IMG/VR virus record: IMGVR_UViG_3300030331_001589
Span: 1-21,367 of that record
Source: a virus
Reading direction: 5' to 3' (one strand)
DNA: 21,367 nt
Shown in pieces: positions 17,368 through 19,918 of the stretch. The notes beneath the pieces are model-generated. The model ran no database searches and was not told the origin of the DNA. It saw only the letters and a list, made by a program, of their open reading frames with translations. The number at the start of each line of letters is the position of its first letter. Position 1 is the stretch's first letter. The position numbers and the translations under genes were made by a program.

Positions 17368-17865
17368 ATGAAAATAATAGATAATTTTTTACCGCAAGAA
17401 CAATTTAATCTAGCTGCAAAACATTTAATGAGTTATGGATTTCCTTGGATGTGGAACGACTCTGTTACAAAAAACGAATGTATAGCAGACCCCTCAGAAT
17501 TTCAATTCGTTCATTCTTTTTATGAACCGTTATGTGGGGTAACAACTGATTATCCTGAGTGGCTTGAAATTATAAAACCATATGGAGATAGATTAAATCC
17601 AATATCTTTAATGAGAATAAAAGCAAATCTTAATATAGGAACTTCAGAATTTATAACAAGGGAATTGCATACAGATTTTAATGTTTCATGCAAGACAGCT
17701 ATAGCTTATATCAACACTAATAATGGATATACAATTTTTGAGGATGGCACAAAAGTTGAGAGTATAGAAAATCGAGTGGTAATTTTTGATTCACATAAAA
17801 AACACGCTGGAGTTCCATGTACAGATGAAAAAAGAAGAGTAGTTTTAAATTTTAATTTTTTATAG
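17368..17865 (+). CDS. 2-oxoglutarate/Fe(II)-dependent oxygenase-like protein (first of two)
   Basis: A 165-residue protein with a double-stranded beta-helix pattern. The putative iron ligands are His101 and Asp103 in RELHTDF and His146 in SHKKHAGVP. Arg156 or Arg157 in DEKRRVVLNFNF probably holds 2-oxoglutarate. The N terminus MKIIDNFLPQEQFN and the FPWMWND segment are typical of phage members of this group. These enzymes hydroxylate protein side chains, nucleobases or small molecules; the substrate here is unknown. The start directly follows the previous stop, and the end overlaps the GTG start of the next gene by one base (TAGTG). Confidence 0.8.
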   Translation: MKIIDNFLPQEQFNLAAKHLMSYGFPWMWNDSVTKNECIADPSEFQFVHSFYEPLCGVTTDYPEWLEIIKPYGDRLNPISLMRIKANLNIGTSEFITRELHTDFNVSCKTAIAYINTNNGYTIFEDGTKVESIENRVVIFDSHKKHAGVPCTDEKRRVVLNFNFL

Positions 17866-18482
17866 TGGAAATTCCAGAAATTAATATTCCAGAAATAAGT
17901 ATTCCAAATATTCATATCCCTTATACTTTTTTGCCTAACTATGAACACTCAAATATTGAGGTAATAGGTTGTAAATATTATCACAGAGATACAAAAAATA
18001 CAGGTAATAGAAACTTGCTAATAGATGATCCTAGAGGAGTTGTTTCAGATTGTCCTTTTCCTAGTTTTATTCCTCTTCAATATGTACCAGATCAATTAAT
18101 TATTGTTGAAGAAGCTGCACCAGAAAATAAAGAACCTGATAAATTACCAGAAGGAAAACCACCTCAAGCTCAAATACCTAAAGAAGAAAAGAAAGAGGAT
18201 GATTATAAACCTTGTCCTGATAAGAATGATCGCAGAATTGGTGAATATACTTCAGAAGCTCGCACTGAAAGGATAAAATCGTATAAAAGAGGTTCAGATG
18301 GCGAATGTATCACCGAATACGAATCAGTTACGTTTGTTGATTCCTTTCTTCCTTCTCCTAGTGCTGCTCTTAACGTGGCTACAATTAGCCTTATCGCTGC
18401 GACATCTCCTCTTATACTTAATGCTATAAAACCATTAGTTAAAAATTTAATAAAAAAATTAACCAAGAAGAAAGAAAAATAA
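17865..18482 (+). CDS. Proline-rich protein with N-terminal IPxIx repeats and C-terminal membrane segment
   Basis: A 205-residue protein starting at GTG 17865. The N terminus carries three or four tandem pentapeptide units (IPEIN, IPEIS, IPNIH, then IPYTF) at about residues 3-22. Next comes a Cys-containing region (GCKYYHRDTKNTGNRN, SDCPFPSFIPLQY), a Pro/Glu/Lys-rich linker at about 85-125, and a second Cys pair (KPCPDK, GECITE). Residues about 165-188 are hydrophobic (ALNVATISLIAATSPLIL), followed by a Lys-rich tail, giving a C-terminal membrane anchor without a signal peptide. Proteins with an N-terminal IPxI repeat and this type of tail occur in cyanophages as far as I remember; function is unknown. 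It is translationally coupled to an oxygenase gene on each side. Confidence 0.7.
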   Translation: MEIPEINIPEISIPNIHIPYTFLPNYEHSNIEVIGCKYYHRDTKNTGNRNLLIDDPRGVVSDCPFPSFIPLQYVPDQLIIVEEAAPENKEPDKLPEGKPPQAQIPKEEKKEDDYKPCPDKNDRRIGEYTSEARTERIKSYKRGSDGECITEYESVTFVDSFLPSPSAALNVATISLIAATSPLILNAIKPLVKNLIKKLTKKKEK

Positions 18483-18991
18483 TGTTTACGATACCTTTTT
18501 ATCAATACAAAATAAACGATTGGAAAAATAAAAAACAAGAATTTGTTAGATTAGCTAATCAAAAAGAATATTATATTGATCCTGTATCTAATGTTTATAC
18601 AAACTATGGAAGAAGTAGCTCATTATGTATTACAAATGTTTTTAACTTAGTAAAAAATGAATTTATTTTATTTAATAAGCAAGCAAATCTAAATTCATCA
18701 TATATTAGTGATCTTTGGTTTCAAAAATATTATGAAAATCAATATCATGGTGTTCATAATCATGGTGCAATAGGATTTAGCTCAGTTTTATACATAGAAT
18801 TTGATAAAAACGAACATAAAGGAACTCAATTTATTTCACCGTTTACTAACCCAAGAGGTCTTACAGATACTTTTAACGCTGAAGTTGATGAAGGAGATTT
18901 AATAATTTTTCCTTCTGTAATTAATCATTTTACAATTCCTACTCAAAGTAAAAAATTAAGAATGATTTTGTCTATGAATATAAAATTTTAA
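18482..18991 (+). CDS. 2-oxoglutarate/Fe(II)-dependent oxygenase-like protein (second)
   Basis: A 169-residue protein resembling the 2OG-FeII_Oxy_5 group. Pattern: WFQKYYENQYHGVHNHG (His89, His92, His94), a GFSSVLYIEF strand, a GDLIIFPSVINHFTIP segment (His149), and KKLRMILSMNIKF (Arg160). The first metal motif is H-x-H and not the common H-x-D, which is usual for this subgroup as far as I recall. It differs in sequence from the other oxygenase, so this is not a recent duplication. The start shares a base with the previous stop (AATAATG). Its stop is the last coding base of the + strand block before the non-coding gap. Confidence 0.8.
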   Translation: MFTIPFYQYKINDWKNKKQEFVRLANQKEYYIDPVSNVYTNYGRSSSLCITNVFNLVKNEFILFNKQANLNSSYISDLWFQKYYENQYHGVHNHGAIGFSSVLYIEFDKNEHKGTQFISPFTNPRGLTDTFNAEVDEGDLIIFPSVINHFTIPTQSKKLRMILSMNIKF

Positions 18992-18997
18992 AAAAAA

Positions 18998-19025
18998 CTG
19001 ACAAACAAAAAAAATAAGGTAAAAT
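18998..19025 (+). promoter_or_regulatory. Sigma70-like promoter for the candidate small RNA
   Basis: CTGACA (18998-19003) matches the -35 consensus TTGACA at 5 of 6 positions. TAAAAT (19020-19025) matches the -10 consensus TATAAT at 5 of 6 positions. The spacer is 16 bases and contains an A-tract. The expected start site, about 7 bases after the -10 box, falls at about 19032, the first base of the structured RNA described next. In such AT-rich DNA promoter-like matches are common, so the weight comes from the coincidence with the RNA 5' end and the lack of any coding frame after it. Confidence 0.55.
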
Positions 19026-19031
19026 AAATAT

Positions 19032-19118
19032 TAACCCAACAAGGGCTGATCCCTGTTTAAGATTGGACGAAAGGCTTAGACGGTTTAAATACCAAAGGTG
19101 GTACTAAGTTGGGTTTTT
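19032..19118 (+). ncRNA. Candidate small structured RNA with four stems (novel or unrecognised)
   Basis: A compact fold can be drawn by hand. P1: AACCCAAC (19033-19040) with GTTGGGTT (19108-19115), 8 bp. P2: AGGG (19042-19045) with CCCT (19051-19054), loop CTGAT. P3: GTTTAAG (19055-19061) with CTTAGAC (19075-19081), 7 bp with one G-U, 13-base loop containing GGACGAAAGG. P4: TACCA (19090-19094) with TGGTA (19099-19103), loop AAGG. P2 and P3 are directly adjacent, forming a four-way junction. P1 then runs into a T-rich tail (19114-19118, TTATT after), so the transcript would start at P1 and end at P1. There is no ATG within it. It looks cloverleaf-like but lacks tRNA features. Whether it is an independent RNA or only an elaborate terminator is undecided. 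Confidence 0.55.
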
Positions 19119-19120
19119 AT

Positions 19121-19211
19121 TAAGCACCTGTCTCTAGTTTGGTCACTAGATGCAAAGAGGTTGAGTGATTGAGCCAAGTTGGTCACTTTCTCGGCAAGTG
19201 CTTATTTTTTT
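19121..19211 (+). terminator. Branched hairpin with long T-tract at the end of the + strand block
   Basis: An outer stem TAAGCAC (19121-19127) with GTGCTTA (19198-19204) is followed by seven Ts (19205-19211). Inside are a hairpin TCTAG/CTAGA (19133-19137 and 19146-19150) and a second stem GAGTGA/TCACTT (19163-19168 and 19183-19188), extended by GAG/CTC. A 9-base repeat TTGGTCACT occurs twice, at 19139-19147 and 19179-19187, once in a loop and once in a stem. The T-tract overlaps the stop codon region of the convergent minus-strand gene. On the minus strand no T-tract follows, so termination should mainly act on + strand transcripts. Confidence 0.6.
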
Positions 19212-19918
19212 GTCTTGATTTTGTGCGTATGGGGTATAACTTGATTTGGTGGTACTGTTACTTTTATCCCTTCACAAATCTCTGCGTATTTTCCAACGAA
19301 CTGTACTCCTAACTTAGCCTGCTTTCCGCAAACCTCTAGACGAAAAAGTGCCATCTCCAATGCCTGTTTCTGGTATAGCAATTCTTGATTTTTAATATTT
19401 ACTTCTGTAGCTCTAAGGCATAAGTCAGGTGCTTTACCTAACGGAATACTAATTTGTGCTGAGATTCCATAGTTCAAGTTATAATTATCTTTTTCAAATC
19501 TTGGTGTTTCTTGCACATATTTAATAGCACCAGTATCTTCGTCATAAATATTTTGTCTAGTTATAGTTTCTTTTGGTCTATTAAATGACCACGCATCTGT
19601 CACATAAGGAGTAATCGTAAGACTTGGAGAACTACAAACAATACCTTGTGACATCCTAAATTGTGGAGTGCTTTGCGGAGCAATCATAGTCGCATTATTA
19701 TTTACTGTTCCTTGTGCATTAGAGCTAGGACTTGCAACCGTAGTATTAGCCAAAACCTTTGTAGGGCAAAGGATTAGAGCTATTGCCCAAATGTAGTTTC
19801 TACGGTTGTTGTGGTTGTTGTATTTATAGTGCGATTTATTTGGGTAATTGTGTCGATGCCTGGTGTCATTACTGTCTCTACCAAACTGAATGGCTGAGAC
19901 TCGTTTACGATCTTCCAT
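19202..19918 (-). CDS. Exported or membrane-anchored protein, unknown (last gene of the minus-strand operon)
   Basis: 238 residues from ATG 19918. Residues about 43-60 are a hydrophobic export-like segment (YIWAIALILCPTKVLANT) with a signal-peptidase-like site VLA before Asn. The mature part has a Ser/Asn/Thr-rich start, then GIVCSSPSLTITPYVTDAW, a charged DEDTGAIKYVQETPRFEKDN, GISAQISIPLGKAPDLCLRA, an ELLYQKQALEMALFRLEVC helix and EICEGIKVTVPPN; four cysteines could form two disulfides. The first 42 residues are His/Asn/Arg-rich, overlap the upstream gene by 139 bases and look like its shadow, but GGAGG lies 10 bases before this ATG. A shorter protein from an ATT or ATA codon near 19795-19785 would have a normal signal peptide. 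Start uncertain; function unknown. Confidence 0.6.
   Translation of the reverse strand: MEDRKRVSAIQFGRDSNDTRHRHNYPNKSHYKYNNHNNRRNYIWAIALILCPTKVLANTTVASPSSNAQGTVNNNATMIAPQSTPQFRMSQGIVCSSPSLTITPYVTDAWSFNRPKETITRQNIYDEDTGAIKYVQETPRFEKDNYNLNYGISAQISIPLGKAPDLCLRATEVNIKNQELLYQKQALEMALFRLEVCGKQAKLGVQFVGKYAEICEGIKVTVPPNQVIPHTHKIKTKK

Follow-up and report, generated by a model that had tools for sequence, protein, structure and literature searches.

A gap between convergent operons

The window that we analyzed (the whole stretch of 21,367 nucleotides from the IMG/VR virus record IMGVR_UViG_3300030331_001589) is the tail part of a marine siphovirus genome. Its late operon, on the + strand, converges on an operon on the - strand, and a 210-base gap separates the last genes of the two. 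In most relatives, the late operon ends with the gene that lies at 17865-18482 in the window (+ strand; phrog_570, function not assigned), and in relatives the 3' end of this gene holds a promoter leader. A 2OG-Fe(II) oxygenase-like gene (18482-18991, + strand; phrog_81) is inserted between this gene and the gap; it is missing from that place in most other relatives. On the far side lies the convergent gene (19202-19918, - strand; phrog_848, no assigned function), which served as the anchor for finding homologous junctions. The gap itself holds two elements with predicted structure, which we refer to together as the RNA island: element 1 (19030-19120, + strand) and, directly behind it, element 2 (19121-19204, + strand).

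By two flanking proteins, the closest isolates are the Prochlorococcus MED4 siphoviruses P-HS2/MED4-184 and MED4-117. Judging solely from these relatives, the host of the window virus is probably Prochlorococcus.

The same junction also accepts protein-coding genes, namely oxygenases and an insert of about 1.7 kb (in L041, in L102, and at 18482-18991 in the window). It is a general cargo hotspot.

Homologs of element 1 support a three-way junction

As a single sequence, element 1 folds with -23.5 kcal/mol (z = -1.76), and 9 of 200 shuffled sequences folded equally well. This is just mildly better than chance, so the evidence for element 1 comes from its homologs. Using scans with a loop pattern together with a covariance model (R1, which scores the window's copy at 105.4 bits), we found homologs in eight further viral contigs, or six distinct sequences counting the window's. 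(The homologs listed from the covariance-model search are L166, L180/L392, L246/L248, L254, and L236/L257/L261.) A 15-base loop pattern alone gave mostly chance matches and was refined with flanking sequence; a pattern on the 3' half of the element yielded no new distinct members when its hits were checked by model search.

Across the six distinct homologs, 94.0% of the cells in the 28 pairs of the consensus fold are paired, and 11 of the 28 pairs have changed on both sides. The covariation of the alignment is 0.390, as compared to 0.214-0.216 ± 0.03 in shuffled alignments, and none of 500 shuffles reached the observed value; the set contains just six distinct sequences, several of them retrieved by the loop pattern, but the covarying stems outside the pattern are unaffected by this retrieval. 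Sliding the pairing partners by one to three columns abolishes the signal. Furthermore, of 168 cells in the alignment, 158 pair if the + strand is the RNA and 133 pair if the - strand is, with 25 G-U pairs and no A-C pairs, which implies that the RNA of element 1 is the + strand.

The first-pass annotation of this locus had proposed an 8-bp closing stem around inner stems of 4, 7, and 5 bp, arranged as a four-way junction. The closing stem (P1) is real: its 5' arm (AACCCAAC, 19033-19040) pairs with its 3' arm (GTTGGGTT, 19108-19115), and five of the eight pairs have changed on both sides among the homologs. As had been described, the element ends T-rich, with the 3' arm running into a T-run at 19114-19118, and has no ATG inside. 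Above P1, the consensus fold has an internal stack, in which GG (19043-19044) pairs with CT (19104-19105), some homologs having changes at both positions of each pair, and CTG (19046-19048) pairs with TGG (19099-19101). This is followed by P2, in which CCT (19052-19054) pairs with AGG (19096-19098); P2 is 100% paired and one of its pairs has changed from CG to UA. The 7-bp inner stem also stands, as P3 (GTTTAAG at 19055-19061 with CTTAGAC at 19075-19081; 100% paired, with one compensatory change from AU to GC). The P3 loop (ATTGGACGAAAGG, 19062-19074) has ATTGGWCGAAAGG in all homologs, with one position varying and the rest invariant, a conservation that is partly due to the selection of hits because the loop letters served as the scan pattern. 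A short hairpin, P4 (GGT-TTAAAT-ACC, 19082-19093), shows compensatory changes in two of its three pairs.

A search for compensatory changes in all four of the original stems had been suggested as a check, and we find them in the closing and 7-bp stems. Of the cells in the proposed AGGG/CCCT stem, 70.8% are paired, and the homolog alignment has no compensatory changes there; the TACCA/TGGTA hairpin likewise shows none among the homologs. Thus, the original observation is partly confirmed, with a corrected fold: the homologs support a long bulged stem (P1, the internal stack, and P2) that ends where it meets P3 and P4 in a three-way junction. By these comparisons, element 1 is a real family of structured RNAs.

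In L236/L257/L261, the core of element 1 lies at another genomic place rather than at the usual junction, and the copy in L257 lacks the T-run. That the core occurs elsewhere in other genomes without a T-run speaks against a role in termination alone. Besides the copy of element 1, the surrounding region in L257 (4821-5925, about 1.1 kb, with few ORFs) contains one or more other long structured elements (GTCGGGAAG...CTCCCGATC).

A conserved promoter ahead of the island

The first-pass annotation had also noticed a -35/-10 pair with a 16-nt spacer, and we find the same candidate promoter at 18998-19025 on the + strand (CTGACA at 18998-19003 and TAAAAT at 19020-19025, with a predicted start near 19032). 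Its -10 box, as TANAAT, is conserved in relatives with islands. The promoter is homologous to the leader CTGACAAAGAAAAAAGATAAGGTATAATAA, which in relatives overlaps the 3' end (the last codons) of the upstream gene. In the window, the leader (ctgacaaacaaaaaaaataaggtaaaataa) is non-coding and sits after the stop codon of the inserted oxygenase gene, and in L102 it is likewise kept as non-coding sequence behind another inserted gene. Where it is coding, the codons after a lysine vary (V or L; then stop, E, K, or Q; NTA NAA TAA) while the DNA sequence TA-AAT stays. The variable codons and the survival of the leader as non-coding sequence are best explained by a selected promoter.

We also compared junctions among unbiased relatives, which were found through the protein of the convergent gene. 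TANAAT precedes 17 of 18 non-redundant island junctions and 0 of 12 gapless junctions (p = 1.5e-7), although the gapless stretches are shorter, which somewhat inflates this contrast. In the isolates P-HS2/MED4-184 and MED4-117, a non-coding island of other sequence lies at the same junction behind TTGACT-N16-TAGAAT. (Individually, these two islands fold no better than shuffled sequences, with z of about +0.6.) This conservation supports the view that the structured RNA has its own promoter of the sigma-70 type.

Whole cassettes are exchanged

Element 2 (19121-19204) is predicted to form another three-way junction and is followed by seven T (19205-19211). Its fold is stronger than that of element 1 (-29.2 kcal/mol, z = -2.88), and its closing stem overlaps the stop codon of the convergent gene. 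It has homologs in L034/L103, L102, L073/L279, and L278/L280, among which variation is confined to the apical stem.

Among the relatives, the junction is either gapless (the genes abut or overlap), occupied by a short hairpin, or occupied by an island of one or more structured elements. Scanning with the leader, we identified 102 stretches and collapsed them to about 73 non-redundant islands. Among these, we recognized more than 20 types of element, combined in about 43 different ways; types and arrangements were assigned by regular expressions, so these counts are approximate. Several of the types show compensatory changes in their closing stems, and islands fold better than shuffled sequences (mean z = -2.5 over 41 islands, four mis-extracted coding stretches included).

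The clearest pair for following the exchange is L180 and L393. Their flanks are 86-88% identical, while their islands are 59.4% identical, as compared to 58.7% in shuffles: the island of L180 is element 1 and that of L393 is type G. Phages from the window's own clade carry type G elements that match the one in L393 at 92-98.5% identity, while their phrog_848-type protein shares just about 30% identity with that of L393. Because similar flanks surround unrelated islands and distant phages share type G, whole cassettes move while their neighbors stay. The RNA island is a hypervariable site of interchangeable cassettes between two convergent operons. This also accounts for a result that might have counted against the original proposal, which held that unrelated sequence in homologous gaps would argue against it. 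Most relatives do have unrelated sequence there, because the gap holds swappable cassettes, yet element 1 keeps its own covarying homologs.

Comparison to known RNAs

A covariance search against Rfam had been suggested as a check; with Rfam 15, no family reached its gathering score in the window. At E up to 10, the best match for the junction was Ref64, at a chance-level 15.3 bits as compared to the 44.3 required. The first-pass annotation did not recognize the fold as a tRNA, known ribozyme, or riboswitch, and this agrees with our searches, as ARAGORN detected no tRNA or tmRNA and the Rfam models gave no match. We also rejected a hammerhead ribozyme, which would have a CUGANGA plus GAAA core with a three-way junction: the element has CUGAUCC, and the hammerhead models did not match. 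BLAST of the junction against isolate phages gave just chance matches, and about 1.8 kb of joined islands gave none.

Searching 300 Prochlorococcus-family genomes with model R1 gave one match (24.6 bits, E = 0.009 per genome), which is expected by chance with so many genomes; two weak matches were dismissed on inspection. A search of 251 host genomes with the joined islands gave nothing beyond short matches (E = 0.002-0.01). The GGACGAAAGG loop had been suggested as a place to look for pairing with host mRNA; a perfect complement of the P3 loop is present in 4 of 81 Prochlorococcus genomes, so we did not find a conserved perfect target there.

A lead on function comes from sister contigs. The motif ACTCCTCACAC, which is the core of the cyanobacterial host sRNAs Yfr1 and Yfr10 (PMC2518516, PMC6778093), occurs in five non-redundant sister contigs (0.7 expected): at L096:2607, L127:5325, L162:6391, L057:2749, and L111:3288, with three of these within islands and two elsewhere. 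In L057, the motif lies in a hairpin loop ahead of a terminator hairpin, which is the arrangement of Yfr10 (PMC6778093). It is possible that the carriers encode mimics of the host sRNA. The resemblance is to the motif and its sRNA-like setting in some sister contigs; in the window, in contrast, the motif (ACUCCUCACAC) is absent from elements 1 and 2, and the Yfr10 model (RF02362) gives the motif-bearing sister contigs at most 26 bits as compared to its cut-off of 43. The motif is therefore a lead on function and not a sign of family membership.

Other known systems share some features with the island. The trans-acting sRNAs and anti-sRNAs of phages, such as AgvB of prophage Sp5 (PMC12197685), are also small phage RNAs with their own promoter and no ORF that likely act on host RNA networks; unlike them, the island's RNAs come as exchangeable cassettes that share a single locus in marine phages, and they match no known sRNA. 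CfrI, wcaG, manA, and PhotoRC-II are likewise structured or antisense cyanophage RNAs (PMC2864571, PMC9964418, PMC12197685), but these are cis elements or the antisense RNA of a known gene, while the islands are intergenic, consist of multiple units, and do not match those models. The morons of lambdoid phages are, like the islands, independent transcription units between conserved late genes that vary among relatives, but the cargo of a moron is a protein and that of the island is RNA. We did not find a description of these RNA islands in the literature.

What the island RNAs might do

The island consists of phage-encoded small RNAs, which are a known kind, arranged here as exchangeable cassettes. 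Our preferred reading, to which we assign a probability of roughly 0.6, is that 19030-19120 is a small-RNA gene of the phage with its own promoter, that it is the first of two exchangeable cassettes, and that its product likely acts in trans in the host. The homology, the covariation, the coding strand, the conserved promoter, and the exchange of cassettes are computational results. A self-contained structured RNA of about 85-90 nt would be made from the + strand via the sigma-70-type promoter at 18998-19025, and related phages swap whole cassettes at the junction of the convergent operons while the flanking genes remain. We infer that the island RNAs are transcribed and processed and that they work in trans once the cell is infected; they could serve as regulators or decoys or imitate host RNAs, comparable to protein-coding morons at such spots. 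The earlier suggestion that element 1 serves in host takeover or as a decoy would fit within this range, and any particular target is a guess.

The elements could instead be elaborate intrinsic terminators, or could stabilize the 3' end of the late mRNA at the convergent junction, in which case the inner folds would matter little. Sites between convergent operons are the classic position for a terminator, in most elements the closing stem is followed by a T-run, and some islands are simple hairpins alone (types J, K, and L). Given the T-runs behind many elements, part of the structural signal could reflect selection for termination. But in the gapless relatives a terminator would not fit into this junction, the inner stems covary, and islands come with a dedicated promoter. 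Nor would termination require that distant phages exchange conserved cores. In the window, a stem is followed by a T-run (a simple scan finds no + strand terminator there), and the relocated copy in L257 lacks the T-run. We consider this explanation rather unlikely. The covariation, the retention of the promoter where it is non-coding, and the core copies elsewhere without a T-run thus favor the original proposal that element 1 is a small RNA in its own right and not just a terminator, even though two of the four proposed stems did not hold up.

Two other explanations seem less probable still. The cassettes might be antitoxin or guide-RNA mimics that neutralize the defenses of the host or of rival phages; this would explain their rapid turnover and stacking, and it is in keeping with their phage-specific distribution and with possible pseudoknot-like cores in some types, such as type D (by inspection only). 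Against such counter-defense, which we think improbable, searches of 16 island loci against Rfam at E up to 1 gave no match, CRISPR and RNA-antitoxin families included, the window's own hits were sub-threshold and at chance level, and we identified no partner gene. Marine picocyanobacteria have few known defense systems of the antitoxin or guide-RNA sort. Alternatively, the hairpins might be selfish or recombinogenic DNA, similar to attC sites or transposon ends, whose structure serves DNA exchange and not RNA. Cassette exchange is indeed real, and by inspection of the alignment, the P1 ends fit the RYYYAAC/GTTRRRY consensus of integron attC sites in the window, L180, and L254. They do not fit in L166, L246, L257, or other cassette types, so we rejected attC as a candidate. 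The G-U pairs without A-C pairs indicate selection on one strand's RNA, the promoter is conserved, and no integrase adjoins the island in the window, all of which makes a DNA-level role very improbable. Trans-acting phage sRNAs are the most likely reading of the island elements.

Phage small RNAs have mostly been discovered singly. A fixed site that accommodates more than 20 unrelated, exchangeable types of structured RNA allows the function of phage RNAs to be studied by comparison, and the hosts are probably among the ocean's most abundant photosynthetic cells. It is conceivable, if somewhat short of probable, that this clade of ocean phages (whose nearest isolates are P-HS2 and MED4-117) maintains a promoter-driven locus of stacked RNA cassettes that are exchanged between lineages, some members with host-sRNA mimics, as an RNA counterpart of a cargo-gene hotspot that would reprogram or disarm the host. 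The small genomes of Prochlorococcus depend heavily on sRNAs (PMC2518516). Because the cultured MED4 phages P-HS2/MED4-184 and MED4-117 have their own island at the same place, these ideas are testable now.

Cassettes also occur in less regular settings. A type-B cassette in L027 (661-716) lies in front of another gene and is preceded by a further hairpin-rich stretch, and a type-I cassette in L097 seemingly has another hairpin-rich insert in its loop, as if cassettes were nested.
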